64,000 nt of DNA. Origin: a virus. A program made the position numbers and the translations under genes. Positions 6,576 through 63,894 of this stretch are shown piece by piece; position 1 is the first letter of the stretch; every line of letters starts with the position of its first letter. The DNA lies in IMG/VR virus record IMGVR_UViG_3300028416_000004, positions 168,515 through 232,514 of that record. One strand, given 5' to 3'. Under the pieces are notes generated by a model. That model was not told the origin of the DNA. It was given only the letters and a program-made list of their open reading frames with translations, and did no database searches.

Positions 6576-9539
6576 ATGGCAGATATTATAAAAAAAATAA
6601 AAACCAATAAAGATGTAAATGTAATAACTTACTTTACGACAGTTGATGCGAGTTCAAAAGAAATTTTTGAAAAACTCAAAAATATTTCCAGTTTACCAAC
6701 TATAAATAGACAACTTAGAATTTGGGATACTATACAACAACAAGGAAAAGAAGCTTATGCAATAAAAGGAGCAAATAATAAAGTTGTTGAATTGTTAGAA
6801 ATGGTAGATGGTTCTTATTGTAAAAGAATACCTTTAACTAATGAATTTAAATTTTTATCTGAAGATGAAGAAAAGAATGTAGTTAAAGGTAAAGTTTTTT
6901 ATGCAAAACAAGATTATGTAAGACCATTAAAGAATGAAACTGTTGAAGAATTTATAGAACAAGCAATAGCTTACTCTGGAAATTCAGCATATTCAAATGT
7001 TTTTAATACAATTCAAAAAAAAACAGATTACTATGCTGACATAACTTTAAAAAGGAGTATAGATACACTCGATACTTTAAATGTCAAAAATAATCTTTTA
7101 TCTGAAGTACCAACTCAAGAGTCAGACACTGGTGTTGTATGTGGAACTTTAGTAGCTAGACAAAAAGTTTTAGATGAAAATGGAGAAAGAGCTTTAATTC
7201 CTTTGGCAAATGTTCCAATAGTTATTTTTAATCCTTCAGAAGAATTTCCTACATATACTTCTCAGGATGAAAATGGCAATAGAATAACTTTGAATGTCAT
7301 ACAAAATTCAGAACCAGAAGATTATTCAGATTTAAACTCTTATGTTTTAGATGTAGGTGTAGATAAGGCAAGAGAAGCTTTAGGGAGTAATGATGTTGGA
7401 GAGGAGTTTGATGGATTGAAACCTTTGTTAAAATCTGTTGAAAGTTTAAATTTACCTGAACATTATAAATATTCAACTATTACAAATGAAAAAGGAGAAT
7501 TTGTAATTCATGATGTACCTACTGGAAATCAAGTTTTATTATTTGAAGTAGATTTATTAAAACAAGGGATGAATAAAAGTGAAGTCGCCTTAAATTTCTT
7601 CCCATACACTAATGAAGAATTACCTAACATAGATAATGTACCTCATTTTTATTATAGGCAAATTCCAATCTCTGTAGTTTCTTCTTGGGGCGAATTTCAA
7701 ACTGGATTTACTGAAGTGAATATAACTTCTAATTTAGATATGAGAAAATGGTCTACTTTTTATGTATCTCCCATTTCTGTTGAAGATAATAATTTAGAAG
7801 AACTTTTTGCTTTAGGTAATTTTAGTAGATTAAATATTTTAGCTAAAGATATGACTAAAGAAGGATATCCTTTAACTACAGAAATAGTAGAAGTGGATGA
7901 TATTTTTTCTAGAGTTGAAAATCAAAGATTAGAGTGGTTTAATGAAAATAAATTTACTAAGTCACAGATTAATTTTAGTAAAAATAATTTTCAAACTTTT
8001 AAACTACCTGCTAATCTTTATGACCCAAATGGAATATCATCTAAAGATGGTGGAAGAACTAAATTAAATTCTAAAAAAGGTGTTTGGTTATGTTCTTATC
8101 AAATGAAAATGTATTACGAAGGAAATCCAGATGTTTATCGAACAACTGGATTTTTAAGAGATAAATTAGAAGAAAATGCTGTTCATTCAAGTCATTTTGA
8201 TGCTAATAGAGGTGTAGACTCTAATCCTTCTTCTGCTACTGGCAACGGATACAATACTTCTATCAACACTTTTCCATATGAAAGAACTTGGACAATAAAT
8301 TACCCAGAACCTTATAAAATACCTTCACTACCTATAGAATATAATGAAAAAGACTTCAATAATCAAGTTGAGCCTAGATATTTAGATGGTGATTTAGCTG
8401 GGTTTTATTATGGTCAAGAAGAATCAACAGGGTATGGACTTATGACTCCCTTAGAAGGAGGTGATGCTATATATAATAAATTTTCACAGACGATTACTAA
8501 AAGTAGAATATATAAATATGAAACAGATGTTTCTTGGCATGAAGAATATTCAAATGGATTTAGAAAATCACAACACTCTAATCTTTTTCAAGGTAAACAT
8601 TTTACTGTAAAAAGTGGAGAAAAGTATCAAAGAATAGAATGTGGATTTGCTTATTGGTTAAAACCAGAAGGTTGGGGTAGAATTAATAATCAAGGTTGGG
8701 GTGATATTATGTTAAATTCAGATATTAATTCAAATTATTCATCTTCAGACAATAAACTTATACCTCAATCTTATATAGGTGCAAATTATAGACAGAGTGA
8801 AAATTTATTATTAAAAATGGATAGCTCAATTTCTCCTTCATGGTTAAGACAAGGTGCTATTGATTTTTATAGAATTGTAGATGATTCTCCTCAATTTTTA
8901 GAAGAAAAAATACCATCACCAATTAAAAAGTATGGCAAAGTTGTAATTGAAAATATCTACACCAATAGAGAAAAGGCTATCTCTAGGCTTGAATTACGAA
9001 TAAGTAATAAAAAAAACTATAGAATGAGAATTTCACAAAATTCTGTTATTGAAATAACAAATAATGGTGCCATAAAATCTGAAATAACAGTTAATGGTGA
9101 TAAGAGACAAGTTGAACCAAAAAAATCTATCTCTTTTAATGTTGCATCTTATACTGAAATTACATTTACTTCAAATTTAGATTATGATATTCAAAAAAAT
9201 TCTTATGATACTTGTAATTATACATTTAAGTTTAAAAATAGTGAAATTAAGAAAGTAGACACTATAATTTATGATTATTATAACTTTACCTTAACAGCTG
9301 GTGAACAAACTCAAATACCAACTAGATATTTAGTTACGACAGTATATAGTGCTGAAGGTAATGTAAAAATCAAGAAAAAAGGAGTTAAGAAGTGTAAAAA
9401 AACATTCAATCAAGCAGGCACATATCAGATTAATGGTTTGATTTTTGAAAAAACTAAATCTTCATCAGCATTAAGCTTCACTTCATCACGAGTAGGTCAT
9501 GATTGTGCTGATGGTGGTATTAAAATTTTGAGAGTTTAA
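6576..9539 (+). CDS. Large tail/baseplate structural protein with carboxypeptidase-regulatory-like domain
   Basis: This encodes 987 residues. Residues about 185-330 contain a pattern of carboxypeptidase regulatory-like (transthyretin-type) domains: GTLVARQKVLDENGERALIPLANVPIVI..., then TNEKGEFVIHDVPTGNQVLLFEVD. The rest is beta-rich and aromatic, with several WG motifs between 660 and 720 and a Gly-poor Ile/Thr/Lys-rich C-terminus. No catalytic motif was seen. It is probably a baseplate or tail component. TATAAATA at 6562-6569 lies 6 nt before the ATG. Confidence 0.6.
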   Translation: MADIIKKIKTNKDVNVITYFTTVDASSKEIFEKLKNISSLPTINRQLRIWDTIQQQGKEAYAIKGANNKVVELLEMVDGSYCKRIPLTNEFKFLSEDEEKNVVKGKVFYAKQDYVRPLKNETVEEFIEQAIAYSGNSAYSNVFNTIQKKTDYYADITLKRSIDTLDTLNVKNNLLSEVPTQESDTGVVCGTLVARQKVLDENGERALIPLANVPIVIFNPSEEFPTYTSQDENGNRITLNVIQNSEPEDYSDLNSYVLDVGVDKAREALGSNDVGEEFDGLKPLLKSVESLNLPEHYKYSTITNEKGEFVIHDVPTGNQVLLFEVDLLKQGMNKSEVALNFFPYTNEELPNIDNVPHFYYRQIPISVVSSWGEFQTGFTEVNITSNLDMRKWSTFYVSPISVEDNNLEELFALGNFSRLNILAKDMTKEGYPLTTEIVEVDDIFSRVENQRLEWFNENKFTKSQINFSKNNFQTFKLPANLYDPNGISSKDGGRTKLNSKKGVWLCSYQMKMYYEGNPDVYRTTGFLRDKLEENAVHSSHFDANRGVDSNPSSATGNGYNTSINTFPYERTWTINYPEPYKIPSLPIEYNEKDFNNQVEPRYLDGDLAGFYYGQEESTGYGLMTPLEGGDAIYNKFSQTITKSRIYKYETDVSWHEEYSNGFRKSQHSNLFQGKHFTVKSGEKYQRIECGFAYWLKPEGWGRINNQGWGDIMLNSDINSNYSSSDNKLIPQSYIGANYRQSENLLLKMDSSISPSWLRQGAIDFYRIVDDSPQFLEEKIPSPIKKYGKVVIENIYTNREKAISRLELRISNKKNYRMRISQNSVIEITNNGAIKSEITVNGDKRQVEPKKSISFNVASYTEITFTSNLDYDIQKNSYDTCNYTFKFKNSEIKKVDTIIYDYYNFTLTAGEQTQIPTRYLVTTVYSAEGNVKIKKKGVKKCKKTFNQAGTYQINGLIFEKTKSSSALSFTSSRVGHDCADGGIKILRV

Positions 9540-9554
9540 TTTTAAAAAAAACTA

Positions 9555-11882
9555 ATGAAAGATAAAATAAAAATATTATTAGGTGAAAAAGATGTTTTTC
9601 CTCAAGTAAATAAAGATGTTTATATAAATTTAGAAATTTATAATTCACCTAATGAAATTAAAAAAGAGTTAGTTAATAATGACTTTAATGTAAGAGAACA
9701 ATTTAACAAAGAAAGAAGAGAATCTTTGAGATTTTGTATATATGGAACCTTAAATTCAATCTTTTCTGATACCAACAATTTATCGATAGAAATAAAAACT
9801 AATCATGAAGATTTGTTGTTTAGCCCAAGAATAGAACCTAATGCTAAATCTTCTGTTACACATAAAGTGTTATCAGCACCTTTATCAAAAAATAATAATT
9901 TATCTAAAAATATATTTAAAAAAAATAAAAGTTGTTTTAATTTTTTGTTTGAAATTAGCCCTGATATAAATAATTATGGAGAAACTAAAGTTTTAGAAGT
10001 TAAAATTATTGATGAGGAAAAAAATATTTTTGCCAATTTTGAGATACCATTTTTATTTTTCGATTCTGAAGGTAATTTTATTGATTTTGGTACAGAAACA
10101 GTTGATATAGATATAGACGGTAATGAACAAGTTGTAGAAAATGATTTTCCTTTTTTTTATGGAACTCATTGGATAAAACAAGAATTTAGTCTATCTAAAC
10201 CCCTCAAAATATCCCTAGTTAAATCTGAATTTGATAATTTAAATAATTTAACTGTAAACGAAAGAACGGGTGAAGTAAAGTTTTATGCTAAATTAGAAAC
10301 GCCTAGTTTATATGGGGTTGAAGAGGCTGAAATTTATATAGAAAGAGATGAGACTTTAAAAGACCCAAATGAAGATTTTGTTTTTGAAAATCAAATTTTA
10401 AAATGGGAAAAAGGAGAACAATTTAAAGAAGTTAATCTACAAGTTTTAGATGATTTATTTACGGAGGAAGATGAAAGAATTATTTTTGGTATTAAAAATC
10501 TAAAATATTCAGAAAAAGATATTAATTCTAATTTTGAATTAATCATAAAAAATGATGATTTACCATCTCCTATAGGGTTTGAAAGTAAGCAATTTGAAAT
10601 TACTTCTGGAGATAAATTGAATATATCATTAGAAGCAGACACTCCAATAAAAGGTATTAATCAAACTATAGATTTAATTTTAGATGATGTTAATAGTACA
10701 ATAATAATAGGAGAGGACATAGAGAATACTGGTACTATTGAAGACCCAGAATTTAGAAAGACCATACTTTTAAAAGAAGGTTTAGATTTATTTGAAATAG
10801 AAATAGATATAAAAGAATATTTTAATTATGGATTAGATAAAAAAGCTATTTTTAAATTAGAAAATCCTACTCAAAATATTAAAGTAAAAGATAATTTAAA
10901 ACAACTTAATTTAACTGTAAAAGATAAATCAGTAAAAAGATATACTACATACAAAATAGATAATGACCCTTTAAGAGGTCAAGGTATATTTAGATTGTCA
11001 TACCCTAGTCCTAAATTAGTGGGGGCTCCAATATCTTTTGCTAATACGAATCTGTATTCTCAATATAATGTAACTAACAACTTTACTTATAAAATTAATA
11101 TTATAAACGAAGGAGAAATTGTTTTATATGATAATAAATTAATTAATCCTGGGGAGGTTGTTACAAGTATAAGTTCAAGTGATGGATTTCAAAACTTTGA
11201 GTTTACATTACCTTCTAATTATTCTTTTGATAAACAAAATGTTTTTTATGAAAAATCAAAATATAAGTTTGTAATAACAGATATAGAAGATTCTTCTAAA
11301 ATACAAGTTATAAAAAATGATTACATAACTTTCGCAGATGTTAATATAGATTCTCAAGCATTAGATTCTTCACTTGATTTTTCTGGTAAAACTTATTATT
11401 TAACTTCAGAAATTTTAAAAATAAAAACTAGATTAGATTTAAATGGTGATTTAAAAAGTGAAAAGGCAATTTATGATATAATCAATAACGCTAAGATTAA
11501 CACAAGTGATAATTTAACTGTAATTAAGCAAAAATTAAGAGATGCAGGTTATTATAAAAAAAATACGTTTACATTTTTGAATAATAAATTTGATGAAAAT
11601 AAAATAACTTCCACAGCAAATAGTATATTGAATTTTATTAGTAAATATCCAACCTTTGAAATACCTAACTTTTTTACTCCTTCAGATGAAATTAGTAGTT
11701 TCTCTATAGATTGCAAAATAAATGGTTTATTAATATTAAGTAAATTATTTAGCAAAACATCAGCAGTTACTAAAGTTAATAATATTAAATTTGAAGAAAA
11801 TCCTATAAAATATACTTATTTTAAAGAAGTAGATGGTAGTAATTATACATTAATGCCAGTAGAACCATTAAATAATTATTAG
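9555..11882 (+). CDS. Virion protein with Calx-beta-like domains
   Basis: This encodes 775 residues. Around residues 235-335 there is a clear Calx-beta-like repeat (LKWEKGEQFKEVNLQVLDD, then EEDERIIFGIKNL, ending in IKNDD). A weaker second copy follows at about 345-460. Calx-beta domains are Ca-binding beta-sandwiches common in adhesins. The C-terminal part is helical and hydrophobic, with no recognised fold. It lies 15 nt after the previous gene in the rightward virion run, so tail or fibre attachment is the probable role. Confidence 0.6.
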   Translation: MKDKIKILLGEKDVFPQVNKDVYINLEIYNSPNEIKKELVNNDFNVREQFNKERRESLRFCIYGTLNSIFSDTNNLSIEIKTNHEDLLFSPRIEPNAKSSVTHKVLSAPLSKNNNLSKNIFKKNKSCFNFLFEISPDINNYGETKVLEVKIIDEEKNIFANFEIPFLFFDSEGNFIDFGTETVDIDIDGNEQVVENDFPFFYGTHWIKQEFSLSKPLKISLVKSEFDNLNNLTVNERTGEVKFYAKLETPSLYGVEEAEIYIERDETLKDPNEDFVFENQILKWEKGEQFKEVNLQVLDDLFTEEDERIIFGIKNLKYSEKDINSNFELIIKNDDLPSPIGFESKQFEITSGDKLNISLEADTPIKGINQTIDLILDDVNSTIIIGEDIENTGTIEDPEFRKTILLKEGLDLFEIEIDIKEYFNYGLDKKAIFKLENPTQNIKVKDNLKQLNLTVKDKSVKRYTTYKIDNDPLRGQGIFRLSYPSPKLVGAPISFANTNLYSQYNVTNNFTYKINIINEGEIVLYDNKLINPGEVVTSISSSDGFQNFEFTLPSNYSFDKQNVFYEKSKYKFVITDIEDSSKIQVIKNDYITFADVNIDSQALDSSLDFSGKTYYLTSEILKIKTRLDLNGDLKSEKAIYDIINNAKINTSDNLTVIKQKLRDAGYYKKNTFTFLNNKFDENKITSTANSILNFISKYPTFEIPNFFTPSDEISSFSIDCKINGLLILSKLFSKTSAVTKVNNIKFEENPIKYTYFKEVDGSNYTLMPVEPLNNY

Positions 11883-21880: not shown

Positions 21881-21907
21881 AATTTATTTTTTTATATAAA
21901 TATCATA

Positions 21908-21933
21908 TAAAAAGGGAGATATTCACCTCCCTT
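21908..21933 (-). terminator. Terminator after LRR adhesin 2
   Basis: The stem AAGGGAG (912-918) / CTCCCTT (927-933) is followed on the minus strand by a short U-tract. It lies 12 nt beyond the stop of the 21946-24144 gene. The U-tract is shorter than at neighbouring terminators. Confidence 0.6.
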
Positions 21934-21942
21934 CATTTTTTT

Positions 21943-22056
21943 TTATTAAACCGTTACAGTCCATCCTTTTGATGTTGCTATAGCAATATCTTCAGGAGTT
22001 AAATCAGCTGTACCAGGGTTATACCTAACATCTATTGTTTGAGATGTTGCGTTACC
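21943..22056. repeat. 114-bp direct repeat, copy 1 (3' end of LRR gene)
   Basis: This is identical to 24501-24614. It covers the last 37 codons or so of two paralogous LRR genes, which encode an identical C-terminus from SQTIDVRYN to SKGWTVTV. Flanking sequence diverges abruptly, consistent with recombination or conversion restricted to the gene ends. Confidence 0.9.
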
Positions 22057-27694: not shown

Positions 27695-30445
27695 TTATGC
27701 TAATGGAGTAAAGTTACCATAATAATCAGGGTTTACAGCAATTGCTTCTTGTCCGTAAATCACAACTGATGCTCCAGTTTCAGGTGCTACATTGAACGTG
27801 AAGGTACCTTGAGTGTTACCTTTAGCATCTACTACTGAACTGAAAGTATAATCAACATCTCTTTCTTGTAATAAACCATTTAAGTAGATTGCTCCACTTC
27901 CATTAATTAATACACTGAAATCTACAGTTACACCATCTCCGACTGCACTATTTAAAATCACAAACTTCCCGACATTAACAGCGTTTAAAATCATAGATTT
28001 GATTTCAACTAATGCTCCGTTAACACCATCTTTGATAGCTTGGTCGATTGAGTTTTGAACTGAAATCTCAGCAGATAACACAACTTCTAATGAAGCGTCA
28101 GCAGCAAGTCTTGCAGCTTTCTCTACAGAGTCAGCAGCTTCGAATGCAGCTGTTACAGCAGCGTCACCAGCAATTCTTGCGTTTTGTTCAGCTAAGTCAG
28201 CAGATTCTCTAGCAGCAACTTCAGTTGAGATATCAGCGTTTACTTTAGCTTCTAATGAAGCGTCAGCAGCTTCTCTAGCAGCAACTTCAGTTGAGATATC
28301 AGCGTTTACTTTACCTTCTAGTGAAGCGTCAGCAGATTCTCTAGCAGCAACTTCAGTTGATAAAGCAGCGTCATTACTCAATACGTAAGAAGCAAATGCT
28401 TGGTCGTTTTCAGTATCAACAGAGTTGATTAGTGTTACGATTTCAGCAAATGAATCTTTATCAGCATCAGAAGCCTCTAAGATAGCATCAATTCTACTTT
28501 TTTCAGTAGATACTTTAGCCTCTAATGAAGCGTCTCCTGAAACTCTCGCTGATTCTTCAGCAGATACGTCAGCATCGATTTTAGCTTCTAATGAACCATC
28601 AGCAGCAACTCTTGAACTAGCTTCAGAACTGATTGCAGCTTCTCTAGCAGCAACTTCAGTAGAGTATTCAATAGCGTGAGTTGATTCCTCAGTAGACAAT
28701 CTTAATTCTAATGAAGCATCAGCAGCAGCTCTAATACTAGCTTCAGCAGATACGTCACCTGTTACAGTAGCATCAAAGTTATCTAAAATTCCTTTAGTAA
28801 TGAATGATAAAGCATCATATCCAGCTAAACTATCTGGTTGAACACCAGCTTTGTTTAAACCTTCGAATGTTCTTTCTCCAGCTGTACCTTCAGCAATAAC
28901 ATCTTTCATTCTAATGTTGTTATCACCATCAACTTCGATTGTTACATCATCAGTTAAAGGTAATGCATCGATTTCAGCTTCCAATGAAGTATCACTAGCT
29001 AAACGAGTTGATTCTTCAGCATCTAATTCACTAACAACTTCTGCGAATGAATCGATTGAGTTTAAGTCAGTGTTAGCGATGATTGAAGAAACCTCACTTG
29101 ATAATACTGTAGCGATTGAATCTTCAGCTTCAGTAGCTCTTGAAATCTCAGCAGCTAATGCAACATCTAATGAACCATCAGCAGCAATTCTTGCAGCTTC
29201 TTCACTAGCTATAGATTCATTTAAATCCTTAGACTCAAGTTCGATTTTTTCATTTAATGAAGCATCAGCAGATACTCTTGAACTTACTTCAGATTCGATA
29301 GCTGTATCATGCTGAGCATCTTTAGCTGTAGCTCTAGCTATCTCAGCGTTTAATTCATTTTGAAGGTCAGTATCTGTATTTATCGCTCTAGTTATTTCGT
29401 CATCGATTTTAGCTTCTAATGAACCATCAGTAGCAATTCTTGCAGATTCTTCAGCTGACATGTCAGCATCGATTTTAGCTTCTAATGAACCATCAGCAGC
29501 AATTCTTGCAGATTCTTCAGCTGACATGTCAGCATCGATTTTAGCTTCTAATGAAGCGTCAGCAGCTTCTCTAGTAGCTTTCTCTACAGAGTCAGCAGCT
29601 TCGAATGCAGCCGTTACAGCAGCATCACCAGCAATTCTTGCGTTTTGTTCAGCTAAGTCAGCAGATTCTCTAGCAGAAACCTCAGTTGAGATATCAGCGT
29701 TTACTTTACCTTCTAATGAAGCGTCACCTGAAATTCTTGAAGATACTTCAGTTGATAAAGCAGCATCATTAGATAATACATAAGATGCAAATGCTTGGTC
29801 ATTTTCAGTATCAACAGAGTTGATTAATGTTACGATTTCAGCGAATGAATCTTTATCAGCATCAGAAGCCTCTAAAATAGCATCAATTCTACTTTTTTCA
29901 GTAGATACTTTAGCCTCTAATGAAGCGTCTCCTGAAACTCTCGCTGATTCTTCAGCAGATACGTCAGCATCGATTTTAGCCTCTAATGAAGCGTCTCCTG
30001 AAACTCTCGCTGATTCTTCAGCAGATACGTCAGCATCGATTTTAACTTCTAATGAACCTTCAGCATCTTTAGCTCTAGTAGTTTCATCACTGATTGATGT
30101 CTCTAATGAACCTTCAGCATCTTTAGCTCTAGCAACTTCAGCATCGATAGCTGCATCATGTTCAGCATCTTTTGCTTCAGCTCTAGCAACTTCAGCAGCG
30201 ATTTCAGCATCATGTTCAGCATCTTTTGCTTCAGCTCTACTCTTCTCGTTGGTAATTGCTTGTTCTAAATTTTGTAAGTCGTCAACTAACCCAGGTAAAT
30301 CTGATTTCTCAATACCAATTGGTCTTAAAATTTCAGCATCAGTCAATTTACCGTCTGATTGTTTATTTAAGATAATCCTAGTTCCACCTGTAAAATTGTT
30401 TGTTGGCTCTACTGGTGCTTCTAATAAAAATAATCTATTTTCCAT
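27695..30445 (-). CDS. Long tail fibre with coiled-coil repeats
   Basis: This encodes 916 residues. The bulk is Ala/Glu/Asp/Ser repeats of the type ASLEAKIDADVSAEESAR, predicted trimeric coiled coil. A longer unit of about 95 residues (LEAKVSTEKSRIDAI...DNDQAFASYVL region) occurs twice, near 150-245 and 610-705. The C-terminal 90 residues are globular and resemble the domain repeated twice in the protein at 31808 (AIYLNGLLQERDVDYTF, then ASVVIYGQE). It is leftward and ends at a strong terminator. It is probably a side or long tail fibre shaft. Confidence 0.8.
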   Translation of the reverse strand: MENRLFLLEAPVEPTNNFTGGTRIILNKQSDGKLTDAEILRPIGIEKSDLPGLVDDLQNLEQAITNEKSRAEAKDAEHDAEIAAEVARAEAKDAEHDAAIDAEVARAKDAEGSLETSISDETTRAKDAEGSLEVKIDADVSAEESARVSGDASLEAKIDADVSAEESARVSGDASLEAKVSTEKSRIDAILEASDADKDSFAEIVTLINSVDTENDQAFASYVLSNDAALSTEVSSRISGDASLEGKVNADISTEVSARESADLAEQNARIAGDAAVTAAFEAADSVEKATREAADASLEAKIDADMSAEESARIAADGSLEAKIDADMSAEESARIATDGSLEAKIDDEITRAINTDTDLQNELNAEIARATAKDAQHDTAIESEVSSRVSADASLNEKIELESKDLNESIASEEAARIAADGSLDVALAAEISRATEAEDSIATVLSSEVSSIIANTDLNSIDSFAEVVSELDAEESTRLASDTSLEAEIDALPLTDDVTIEVDGDNNIRMKDVIAEGTAGERTFEGLNKAGVQPDSLAGYDALSFITKGILDNFDATVTGDVSAEASIRAAADASLELRLSTEESTHAIEYSTEVAAREAAISSEASSRVAADGSLEAKIDADVSAEESARVSGDASLEAKVSTEKSRIDAILEASDADKDSFAEIVTLINSVDTENDQAFASYVLSNDAALSTEVAARESADASLEGKVNADISTEVAAREAADASLEAKVNADISTEVAARESADLAEQNARIAGDAAVTAAFEAADSVEKAARLAADASLEVVLSAEISVQNSIDQAIKDGVNGALVEIKSMILNAVNVGKFVILNSAVGDGVTVDFSVLINGSGAIYLNGLLQERDVDYTFSSVVDAKGNTQGTFTFNVAPETGASVVIYGQEAIAVNPDYYGNFTPLA

Positions 30446-59621: not shown

Positions 59622-60122
59622 ATGGCAACAAACATTACAACAGCAGAAGTGAAAGAATTGCAAAAACAATTTATTGAAAAAATTGGAGATTATGCAGTTA
59701 AATTTGATGATATTTCTCTTTATAAAGGATATAGTGGACAAGATGCAGTTTTTTCTGGTAAAATATTATTAGAGAAAGATTATAGTATATCTTGGTCTTT
59801 TTCTCTTGTGGATGGAATAAAAATATTAGAAGCTAATTTTGTTATTAACGATAAAAATAGAAATATATTACAAAATCTACAAGATATTTATCAAATATTT
59901 TATGAAAAATTTAATCAATTAATAAGAGATATTGAGATAGATTCAGATGTGGAAGGTTTAAGTGATGAAAGGATTAATATGACACAATCTTCAGAGGAGG
60001 AAAGTTCTCAAGAAGAAGAGGAAGAAAATATGTCAATAACAGAATCTAGATTAGTAAAAAATAGAGCTAAGTTAATTAATTCTAGTTATGAAAGAATGAA
60101 AAAATTATCAGGAATTAAATAA
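59622..60122 (+). CDS. Virion-like protein with C-terminal YERMKKLSGI tag
   Basis: This encodes 166 residues from the start at 59622 (MATNITTAEV). A start at 59577 would overlap the previous gene by 44 nt and add 15 mostly lysine residues, so I prefer 59622. The middle is a long helical region with an acidic Ser/Glu stretch (about 128-140). The C-terminus ends INSSYERMKKLSGIK, the tag shared with nearby proteins. It is the last gene before the bidirectional terminator. Confidence 0.62.
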   Translation: MATNITTAEVKELQKQFIEKIGDYAVKFDDISLYKGYSGQDAVFSGKILLEKDYSISWSFSLVDGIKILEANFVINDKNRNILQNLQDIYQIFYEKFNQLIRDIEIDSDVEGLSDERINMTQSSEEESSQEEEEENMSITESRLVKNRAKLINSSYERMKKLSGIK

Positions 60123-60141
60123 AAAAACAAAAATTATAAAA

Positions 60142-60178
60142 CAAAAAAAAACGCTCACTTAAATGGGCGTTTTTTTTT
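60142..60178. terminator. Bidirectional terminator
   Basis: The stem ACGCTCA (150-156) / TGGGCGT (163-169), with one G-T pair and a 6-nt loop, is flanked by an A-run on one side and a T-run on the other, so it functions for both convergent genes (59622-60122 and 60194-60547). Confidence 0.88.
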
Positions 60179-60193
60179 GTTTTATATAGATAA

Positions 60194-60547
60194 TTAGTTT
60201 TTAATTATCTTCCAACTTTCTAGAGGGTTAGTTTCATATTTTAAAGGTGTCTCTCTATAAATTATAAATTTAAAACTCCTTCCAGGATTAAGAGTATCAT
60301 TACCTTGAATTTTTATGTAATCTCCATCTTTTAACTTTTCGCTTTCAGCAGCGTCAACTATTTTAAATAAATCATCTAATTGTCTTTCCATTTTAATAGT
60401 CACACCTTCAAAATTTAAAATGACAGTTTCACCTGGCTTACTATCAAAAATACTTTCTGAAGAAGTAGGATTTTCTTTTACATGAGAAGTCATTTCTTCG
60501 TATGATTCTCTTATTAATTGTCTTATTAGTTCTTTAGTAATTTTCAT
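60194..60547 (-). CDS. Small virion-like protein with N-terminal IRQLIRESYEE helix
   Basis: This encodes 117 residues. N-terminus ITKELIRQLIRESYEEM (3-19), amphipathic, like the start of the 51053 gene product (NIIRETF...). The remainder is a small beta domain (TVILNFEGVTIKM, then YIKIQGND). No family recognised. It stands alone, between two terminator/promoter regions; AATATTTATAATA precedes it. Confidence 0.6.
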   Translation of the reverse strand: MKITKELIRQLIRESYEEMTSHVKENPTSSESIFDSKPGETVILNFEGVTIKMERQLDDLFKIVDAAESEKLKDGDYIKIQGNDTLNPGRSFKFIIYRETPLKYETNPLESWKIIKN

Positions 60548-62550: not shown

Positions 62551-62581
62551 TTTGTTTTTTTGTAATGAACAATTAAATTTG
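62551..62581 (+). promoter_or_regulatory. Bacteroidetes-type promoter for the RNA cluster
   Basis: TTTG (551-554), 19-nt spacer, TAAATTTG (574-581). This is a near-exact match to the Bacteroidetes -33/-7 consensus, and lies 47 nt before tRNA-Glu. It implies the RNA cluster is transcribed by host RNA polymerase. Confidence 0.75.
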
Positions 62582-62627: not shown

Positions 62628-62702
62628 GCTCCCATCGTCTATCGGTTAGGACATCAGGTTTTCATCCTGAAAAGCGGGGTTCGATTCCCCGTGGGAGTAC
62701 CA
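62628..62702 (+). tRNA. tRNA-Glu (UUC)
   Basis: Full cloverleaf: acceptor 628-634 / 692-698, anticodon loop with TTC, T-arm CGGGG-TTCGATT-CCCCG, encoded CCA at 700-702. It closely follows the usual bacterial tRNA-Glu pattern (TCGTCTA in the D arm). The phage uses GAA heavily. Confidence 0.93.
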
Positions 62703-62750
62703 CTTGTTTTTAATTTCATTATCACAAATAAGTGAAATATATAATATATT

Positions 62751-62819
62751 GCGTGAAAGTGTAAAAGGTTGCATGGGACGCTCATAACATCTACGGGGTG
62801 GTTCGAATCCACAACACGC
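62751..62819 (+). tRNA. Degenerate tRNA-like sequence, CAU anticodon
   Basis: The acceptor has five pairs (GCGTG 751-755 / CACGC 815-819) plus two mismatches. The D-like hairpin is TGT/GCA. The anticodon loop is CTCATAA (781-787) with 4 of 5 stem pairs. The T-arm is GTGG-TTCGAAT-CCAC (4 bp). No encoded CCA (followed by TACA). It could be a divergent tRNA-Met or tRNA-Ile2, or a tRNA-derived RNA. Confidence 0.5.
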
Positions 62820-62823
62820 TACA

Positions 62824-62868
62824 AAGATTTAGAGTAATTAACTAAATCTTGTCTAGTTCGAAATAGAC
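62824..62868 (+). ncRNA. Tandem hairpins
   Basis: A 9-bp perfect hairpin AAGATTTAG (824-832) / CTAAATCTT (842-850) is followed without gap by GTCTA (851-855) / TAGAC (864-868) with loop GTTCGAAA, which resembles a T-arm. They may be part of a larger RNA or a processing signal. Confidence 0.5.
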
Positions 62869-62870
62869 GA

Positions 62871-62943
62871 TTGAATATAGTGTAAGAGGCACGGAAAAAG
62901 GTAATACGGACTCAAGATTAAGGTTCGATTCATTATTATTCAA
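62871..62943 (+). ncRNA. tRNA-like sequence lacking an anticodon arm
   Basis: A perfect 7-bp acceptor-like stem TTGAATA (871-877) / TATTCAA (937-943) spans exactly 73 nt. A D-like hairpin GTG-TAAGAGG-CAC (880-892) and a T-arm-like TAAGG-TTCGATT-CATTA (919-935, 4 of 5 pairs) are in the expected places. No anticodon stem can be drawn. It is probably not a translating tRNA. Confidence 0.5.
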
Positions 62944-62947
62944 CTAG

Positions 62948-63126
62948 TGAGTAAGAGGTGCTCATAGAGTTTGTAGGTAACTCCACAACAAAACCTTCCC
63001 CCAAAGTCTCATGTAGGGTTATGAGTGAGGTATGTGGAATCAGGGCGGAAAGTCCTCCTACCCCCACATTAAGGACTGACGTTTTCAGTGGGTAAGACCA
63101 ACAGGTTTTAGAAAAAGGAAAAAACC
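62948..63126 (+). ncRNA. Structured RNA with predicted pseudoknot
   Basis: From the 5' end: hairpin TGAG/CTCA (948-951/961-964); GAGTT/AACTC with 7-nt loop (967-971/979-983). CTCATA (961-966) can alternatively pair with TATGAG (63020-63025), so this helix competes with the first hairpin. Then ATGTGG...GGG (63032-37, 43-45) with CCC-CCACAT (61-69), whose loop AGTCCT (51-56) is complementary to AGGACT (72-77), giving an H-type pseudoknot. Then GGTTTT (104-109) / AAAACC (121-126). No ORF. It lies between a tRNA-like unit and tRNA-Arg. Confidence 0.6.
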
Positions 63127-63164
63127 GATATATCTAGCATATGTAATCTCAATATGTGACATTT

Positions 63165-63238
63165 GCACCCATAGCTCAGCTGAATAGAGCAATTCACTTC
63201 TAATGAATAGGTCCCAGGTTTGAATCCTGGTGGGTGTA
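63165..63238 (+). tRNA. tRNA-Arg (UCU)
   Basis: The acceptor GCACCCA (165-171) / TGGGTGT (231-237) has one G-T pair. The anticodon loop is CTTCTAA, anticodon TCT. The T-arm is CCAGG-TTTGAAT-CCTGG. AGA is the dominant Arg codon in this phage, so this tRNA supports translation of AT-rich genes. No encoded CCA. Confidence 0.92.
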
Positions 63239-63247
63239 CTAAAAAAA

Positions 63248-63348
63248 GTGATAAGTTCCAAACAAATAATTAGCTCTACCAGGGCACAAATCCGTGTGAG
63301 GTTATCTAATGTGAGGAATTTCTTTTAATATCACACCTATACATAGGT
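63248..63348 (+). ncRNA. Structured RNA with nested stems
   Basis: Outer stem GTGATA (248-253) / TATCAC (329-334); inner AAGTTCC (253-259) / GGAATTT (315-321), sharing one base with the outer. Inside is the hairpin CACA-AATCCG-TGTG (285-298). Then comes ACCTA (335-339) / TAGGT (344-348) with a 4-nt loop. It fills the gap between tRNA-Arg and tRNA-Met/Ile. Confidence 0.5.
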
Positions 63349-63424
63349 CGAAAAGATATATAAAAAATGGATTTATTTAATACTAGTCAAAATAAATTGT
63401 TTATATTAAAAGATAGCTTTTTAA

Positions 63425-63498
63425 GGTCCTTTAACTCAGTTGGTTAGAGTAACTGACTCATAATCAGTAGGTCGATGGTTCGAGTCCATCAAGGACCA
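63425..63498 (+). tRNA. tRNA-Met or tRNA-Ile2 (CAU)
   Basis: Perfect acceptor GGTCCTT (425-431) / AAGGACC (491-497). The anticodon stem ACTGA/TCAGT has the loop CTCATAA. The T-arm is GATGG-TTCGAGT-CCATC. With C34 at the first anticodon position, Met versus lysidine-modified Ile cannot be decided from the anticodon; the GGTCCTTTA...AGTTGGTTAGAG pattern resembles tRNA-Ile2. No CCA encoded. Confidence 0.9.
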
Positions 63499-63512
63499 CA
63501 TATTAAACTAGT

Positions 63513-63648
63513 CTCCAGAAACTTCTTTTATGTAAAGCCTAAGTTGCTAAGGTAAGAATGATAGCAGTTTCTCACAATCGATTAAGCACTACATGACAAT
63601 TGTGAGGATGTAGTAATAAACTTGCATAATAAGAAGTTTCAAATGGAG
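63513..63648 (+). ncRNA. Structured RNA with long closing helix and H-type pseudoknot
   Basis: Closing helix: CTCCA (513-517) / TGGAG (644-648), GAAACTTCTT (518-527) / AAGAAGTTTC (631-640), TTATG (528-532) / CATAA (625-629), so about 20 pairs with a 3-nt and a 1-nt bulge. Inside, GCTA (546-549) / TAGC (562-565). Pseudoknot: CTCACAAT (571-578) / ATTGTGAG (599-606) interleaved with ACTACAT (588-594) / ATGTAGT (608-614). All are exact matches. No ORF. It lies between tRNA-Met/Ile and the Leu-like RNA. Confidence 0.78.
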
Positions 63649-63659
63649 TATTTCACATT

Positions 63660-63785
63660 GTCGGTTTGGTGGATGTGATACACGACCCTTAGACGTAAGG
63701 GCTACTCTTAATAATAAGTTGTAATCGCCCAGGGTAACGGGGACAACCAATATAGAGAAAAGCAGTTAAAATCTGTAGGCCGACA
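63660..63785 (+). ncRNA. tRNA-Leu-like RNA with expanded variable region (about 126 nt)
   Basis: Acceptor GTCGGTT (660-666) / GGCCGAC (778-784), two G-T pairs; D-arm GTG-GATGTGATA-CAC (669-683), as in class II tRNAs; anticodon hairpin CCCTT-AGACGT-AAGGG (686-701) with TTAGAC resembling a Leu UAG loop, but 6-nt loop; T-arm GCAG-TTAAAAT-CTGT (762-776) exactly abutting the acceptor. Between 702 and 760 lies an extra structured domain, GTTGT (718-722) / ACAAC (743-747) enclosing CCC/GGG. Discriminator A785, no CCA. It could be a highly divergent tRNA or a tRNA mimic. Confidence 0.6.
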
Positions 63786-63799
63786 CATTATTTATAAAC

Positions 63800-63873
63800 T
63801 CCTCCTTAGTTCAGTTGGTTAGAACATTTGACTGTTAATCAAAGGGTCCTTGGTTCGAGTCCAAGAGGGGGAG
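63800..63873 (+). tRNA. tRNA-Asn (GUU)
   Basis: Acceptor TCCTCCT (800-806) / AGGGGGA (866-872), one G-T pair; anticodon loop CTGTTAA; T-arm CTTGG-TTCGAGT-CCAAG. Followed by C and a long T-run (63875 onward), which likely terminates transcription. Confidence 0.93.
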
Positions 63874-63894
63874 CTTTTTTTTTTTAAAAAAATG

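Follow-up and report, generated by a model that had tools for sequence, protein, structure and literature searches.

Bacteriophage T4 encodes two annotated small stable RNAs, RNAC and RNAD, which are expressed late and whose role is unknown (PMC3014915, PMC9697503). ROOL and GOLLD, structured RNAs of phages and prophages, are found near tRNA islands and have no known function (PMC12286853). Group I introns in tRNA genes likewise place structured, non-tRNA sequence in phage tRNA arrays. Type III antitoxin RNAs of the ToxI-like kind are compact and pseudoknotted. At least one report describes phage escape from type III systems by RNA mimicry (PMC3475682). Here we describe a locus, U5, that sits among the tRNAs of a phage, just as RNAC (species 1 RNA, 139 nt) and RNAD (species 2 RNA, 119 nt) lie beside tRNAs in the T4 cluster. 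We favor, with moderate confidence, the view that U5 is a discrete structured RNA of ~136 nt cut from the phage tRNA precursor, a small stable RNA of the RNAC/RNAD kind. Very likely, U5 is a genuine RNA unit belonging to the tRNA operon.

Location and helices of the U5 RNA

The 64-kb window analyzed here forms the end of a virus record of 232,514 bases and carries a tRNA array near its right end. The host is probably a member of the Bacteroidota, and the baseplate wedge proteins encoded in the window point to a contractile-tailed phage. On the plus strand the array runs tRNA-Glu, tRNA-Arg, tRNA-Met, tRNA-Asn (62628-63874; Table 1), and the last two are separated by a 300-nt spacer, of which U5 fills the first half. 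No sense-strand ORF of at least 40 aa overlaps it. By location (inside a phage tRNA array, on the same strand) and by form (structured, non-coding and, at 136 nt, within a range of about 100-150 nt), U5 belongs to a loose class of phage tRNA-operon RNAs.

Nine contigs, our window included, share a leader composed of an A/T-rich block, TANATTTGTCGTTA and a TCTTTGAAA block, and in these nine the TANATTTGTCGTTA block is conserved at the position of the putative promoter. We take the TTTG-N19-TAAATTTG sequence in the leader to be a Bacteroidota-type promoter, a pattern that is weak alone (seven in the window versus 4.4 expected), and we take the GCTCTTTGAAA/TCTTTGAAA element to resemble rrn boxA. 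Conservation of the leader is measured, whereas promoter and antitermination roles are putative assignments made from the motifs. A conserved leader with promoter-like and boxA-like blocks implies that U5 should be co-transcribed with the tRNAs, as in a stable-RNA operon. A terminator scan found no intrinsic terminator and did not call the 11-T run that follows tRNA-Asn.

Table 1 Features of the tRNA array and of the U5 RNA in the 64-kb window
Feature	Position	Strand	Evidence or description
Putative Bacteroidota-type promoter of the tRNA operon, TTTG-N19-TAAATTTG	62551..62581	+	Pattern match
Putative boxA-like antitermination motif in operon leader, GCTCTTTGAAA	62599..62609	+	Conserved as TCTTTGAAA in nine leaders
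tRNA-Glu (TTC)	62628..62702	+	ARAGORN; Rfam 58.9 bits
tRNA-Arg (TCT)	63165..63239	+	ARAGORN; Rfam 65.9 bits
Unit D, structured RNA between tRNA-Arg and tRNA-Met	63240..63424	+	Covariation versus L010; ~186 nt
tRNA-Met (CAT)	63425..63499	+	ARAGORN; Rfam 74.7 bits; directly upstream of U5
U5 RNA	63513..63648	+	Helix search, folding, chance tests; 136 nt
P1, 5' strand	63513..63535	+	Pairs with 63622-63648; 23 bp
P2 hairpin	63541..63570	+	9 bp with G-U, 63541-63549/63562-63570; loop AGGTAAGAATGA
P3 hairpin	63571..63606	+	8 bp, 63571-63578/63599-63606; abuts P2
P4	63588..63614	+	7 bp, 63588-63594/63608-63614; interleaves with P3, pseudoknot or alternative hairpin
P1, 3' strand	63622..63648	+	Bulges at 63630 (1 nt) and 63641-63643 (3 nt)
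Unit U6, further probable RNA unit	63654..63799	+	Closing helix TGTCGG/CCGACA
tRNA-Asn (GTT), last gene of array	63800..63874	+	ARAGORN; Rfam 68.6 bits
Run of 11 T, possible terminator tail	63875..63885	+	Directly after tRNA-Asn

The base pairs of P1 are arranged in blocks of 5, 10 and 8 with one G-U pair, include an exact 10-bp helix (63518-63527/63631-63640), and enclose P2, P3 and P4. The preliminary description of this locus had listed exact complementarities and a closing helix of about 20 bp. A helix search recovered every one of the former (10-, 8- and 7-bp helices), and the latter is P1, which totals 23 bp with two bulges. P2 was missing from that list and was found when G-U pairs were allowed.

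Pseudoknot geometry and chance expectation

P3 and P4 are the two interleaved helices expected of an H-type pseudoknot, and they use different bases, so coexistence is possible. In an H-type fold, loop 3 must be long enough to cross stem 1; here, loop 3 is a single nucleotide (63607) set against the 8-bp stem 1 formed by P3. The H-type pseudoknot originally proposed therefore stands as a pair of interleaved helices but not in its canonical form, because 1 nt fails to cross an 8-bp stem, and this loop 3 geometry makes a canonical coaxial fold of P3 and P4 doubtful. The two helices would be compatible only if they lay side by side or if P3 were frayed. The nested folds P1-P2-P3 and P1-P2-P4 are predicted at -32.5 and -31.1 kcal/mol, respectively, and because these alternatives differ by 1.4 kcal/mol, P3 and P4 may alternate. 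On these folding energies, a P3/P4 switch would be as likely as a pseudoknot.

How unusual is this arrangement? The U5 core has an MFE of -35.9 kcal/mol (z about -4.2), and 5 of 5000 dinucleotide shuffles reach equal stability, both values applying to core ends that were picked post hoc, on the helix. For the tRNA-bounded spacer 63500-63799, whose boundaries were set beforehand by the flanking tRNAs, a closing helix as strong arises in 29 of 2000 shuffles, and the folding z of the whole spacer is -2.1. A 10-bp helix around an interleaved 7+7 pseudoknot is expected ~0.5 times per shuffled 64-kb window and occurs three times in the real one; when the inner extension of P1 is also required, the expectation falls to 0.017 per shuffled window and the one real occurrence is the U5 locus. 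The thermodynamic signal comes from P1, as the inner 86 nt are no stabler than shuffles (z -0.25). An equally good fold is predicted for the opposite strand (z -5.0), as expected when helices are mostly Watson-Crick. Taken together, the shuffle statistics indicate that the feature is real and that its excess is smaller than had been claimed: ‘far more than expected’ was too strong, given how often the looser pattern appears in shuffled windows. The U5 feature is unlikely by chance, and the weight of this statement rests on P1 and the genomic context.

Elsewhere in the window, the strongest folding signals lie at 60049-60260, 21889-22030 and 29449-29590, with sliding z values of -6 to -11 that exceed the signal at U5. 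The fold at 60.1 kb, flanked by convergent genes, is probably a terminator.

Homologues of U5 and RNAs in neighboring spacers

Identical copies of U5 occur in contigs L002 and L004, which represent the same phage (array 99.8-99.9% identical). Blastn searches for U5 in phages gave nothing usable (best E about 2), an IMG/VR search with an exact 27-mer and three 16-mers returned only the same phage plus unrelated contigs, and one U5 16-mer found no usable homologue in 84,980 genomes. A covariance model (R1), which was built from three identical copies and can miss distant relatives, detected no divergent homologue in 25 records (related loci, whole contigs and pattern matches) and no homologue in 301 genomes from the family of an Algibacter genome. 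Two weak matches to the model, L108 2270-2414 (17.6 bits) and L142 1501-1656 (28.6 bits), were rejected as chance matches, being antisense to ORFs of 274 and 595 aa, respectively. When the whole array was used for blastn, tRNAs dominated the top matches. Relatives such as L003 and L016, in which tRNA-Arg and tRNA-Met are adjacent, have no match to U5, and its absence there indicates that U5 is dispensable in this phage group.

At gathering score or at E up to 10, nothing in Rfam overlaps 63513-63648, with coverage of tRNA, tmRNA, RNase P, introns, ribozymes, riboswitches, ROOL and GOLLD, and ARAGORN calls neither a tRNA nor a tmRNA at U5. The initial judgment that U5 is not a tRNA, tmRNA, RNase P RNA or known self-splicing intron thus holds. 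So does its reading as a structured RNA, now placed within a tRNA operon and beside a covariation-supported unit; the suggestion that it is regulatory or catalytic found no support.

That neighboring unit, Unit D, is better supported than U5. It has a homologue in the related phage contig L010 (8921-9127) and no Rfam match. In the nested structure, 38 of 38 pairs are kept with nine double compensatory changes, compared with 0 or 1 double changes in control versions shifted by 1-3 columns. These two sequences had also served to derive the structure, which favors it over the shifted controls. Nine double changes among so few substitutions nevertheless argue strongly for the proposed Unit D structure, and this covariation indicates that the tRNA array does encode structured RNAs. 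For U6, downstream of U5, 10 of 150 shuffles match the closing helix and the folding z is -1.1, a weak signal. A U6-derived 16-mer located no further arrays, its matches being without tRNAs.

Related arrays contain other closed RNAs. In L005, a spacer RNA at 11436-11529 is closed by an 11-bp helix. L010 carries a 137-nt RNA (8780-8916) with a 15-bp closing helix, another helix-closed pseudoknot candidate, whose hairpin loop TTTGCAG is complementary to the 7-nt downstream sequence CTGCAAA in an arrangement like that of U5. Spacers in these arrays appear to turn over quickly yet keep the habit of encoding closed RNAs.

Several tRNA-like units also came to light. A T-arm and an acceptor-like closing stem, without a normal anticodon or D arm, are found at 62750-62821 and 62870-62945 in our array, at 8590-8690 and 8694-8777 in L010, and at 8465-8540 in L003; the first of these reaches 20 bits against the tRNA model, which is under the cut-off. 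Just after tRNA-Met, L010 has two tandem copies (9203-9320) of a ~50-nt unit (AGGTAAGGTTTT..GAAGTTCGAATAATC), each with a T-arm-like hairpin. Further along, L010 11813-11977 is a tRNA-like gene with anticodon GTT that ARAGORN does not call; it lies inside an extra 11-bp helix and is preceded by its own boxA-like motif (GTTCTTTGAA). In L012, segments 10274-10346 and 10438-10490 could form a circularly permuted tRNA-like gene, in which a T-arm and the 3' acceptor strand TCTCCCC precede the 5' acceptor GGGGAGA, a canonical D-arm and a hairpin. The ends of this gene pair (TCTACGG/CCGTAGA), and the pieces rejoined in tRNA order fold into a cloverleaf whose variable region is long.

Probable origin and possible role of U5 compared with known phage RNAs

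There is a plausible route by which U5 could become a separate RNA. P1 would close it off from tRNA-Met upstream and U6 downstream; within this enclosure, the abutting P2 and P3 could stack, with P4 either lying beside P3 in a pseudoknot or forming a hairpin in its place. We infer that release would probably be carried out by host tRNA-processing nucleases. For example, RNase III could cut P1, which spans ~two helical turns and might be a site for this enzyme as well as the closing stem, while the flanking tRNAs would be trimmed by RNase P and 3' nucleases. Once released, the RNA would build up as a small stable RNA, like T4 RNAC and RNAD; by analogy, its most likely mode of action would be in trans, with a protein or ribonucleoprotein of the host or the phage as its binding partner. 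Against this explanation stand the dispensability of U5 within its group, the ordinary folding of its inner 86 nt, and the finding of identical copies only.

Some of the same observations would suit a spacer that acts solely in cis, with P1 serving as an RNase III site that splits the tRNA precursor and the insert having no independent existence. In favor of this are the length and near-perfect pairing of P1, its position between two transcripts that have to be parted, and a stability excess that does not extend to the inner part; yet a bare hairpin would suffice for this purpose, leaving 90 nt of ordered P2, P3 and P4 unneeded, and relatives process Arg-Met pairs with spacers of 5-7 nt that contain no such element. 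We regard a purely cis-acting spacer as possible but unlikely. A somewhat less probable explanation is that nothing here is selected, with U5 being chance pairing in an AT-rich spacer or a decaying remnant. The frequency of the looser pattern in shuffled windows, the ordinary inner region and the lack of conservation of U5 anywhere are all consistent with this idea. However, the strict arrangement is rare in shuffled windows and falls inside the tRNA array, phages rarely keep 300 nt of empty operon spacer, and covariation supports Unit D, a nearby spacer of the same array.

Two further alternatives seem to us quite improbable. Interleaving of P3 and P4 and the near-isoenergetic competition between them could reflect the compact pseudoknotted core of a self-cleaving ribozyme, or a bistable switch in a riboswitch-like ligand-binding RNA. 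By contrast, the ribozyme and riboswitch families of Rfam give no match even at E up to 10, no conserved core is definable, and U5 lies between tRNAs, so there is no adjacent gene to control. Least credible is a MITE-like mobile DNA element whose terminal inverted repeat would only by coincidence look like the helix P1. Its ~136 bp, near-perfect terminal inverted repeats and lack of a match in relatives fit such an element, but the 232-kb genome record contains U5 only once and, of the 24 related contigs, just the same phage's own contig has it; moreover, a target-site duplication is not evident and the inner helices would be unexpected.

More broadly, the array suggests that placing structured RNAs of unrelated kinds among tRNAs is a habit that extends more widely among large phages. 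One speculative extension, which we put forward with low confidence, is that the tRNA operons of large Bacteroidota phages also serve as rapidly changing reservoirs of small RNAs, some of them unrelated helix-closed and pseudoknotted molecules, with U5 as one example, and others aberrant tRNA-like RNAs. The boxA leader would allow these RNAs to be made in rRNA-like amounts, and in trans they might affect host translation or serve as decoys against defenses that target tRNAs. Unit D, which covaries, offers a testable entry point, and U5, compact and closed by a long helix, is a further candidate, open to direct probing.

Among known systems, the large RNAs of tRNA islands differ in size and form: ROOL and GOLLD span several hundred nucleotides and form multimeric cages, in contrast to the 136 nt of U5, and identity of U5 as a homologue of either failed every test run. 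ToxI-like RNAs consist of tandem short pseudoknot repeats beside a toxin gene, whereas U5 is a single 136-nt unit; the only tandem repeat in the array is an A-rich run, and no toxin-type gene adjoins U5. Group I introns differ in that U5 lies outside a tRNA, is too short, has no conserved core and has no Rfam match. The related phage L005 does appear to carry such an intron: ~209 nt (8318-8526) interrupt its tRNA-Arg(TCT) after the first anticodon base, and the core of this insert looks like that of a group I intron of the tRNA-Leu type, although Rfam does not call it.

The T4 RNAs share the setting of U5, but the tests run did not identify U5 as a homologue of RNAC: U5 has no blastn match to T4 or its relatives, and RNAC has a tRNA-like T-arm (CCGGGTTCGAATCCCGG), a motif that 63513-63648 does not contain. 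The T-arm end of RNAC is of the same kind as in the tRNA-like units of the arrays described above. A 23-bp closing helix distinguishes U5 from both RNAC and RNAD, neither of which has one.
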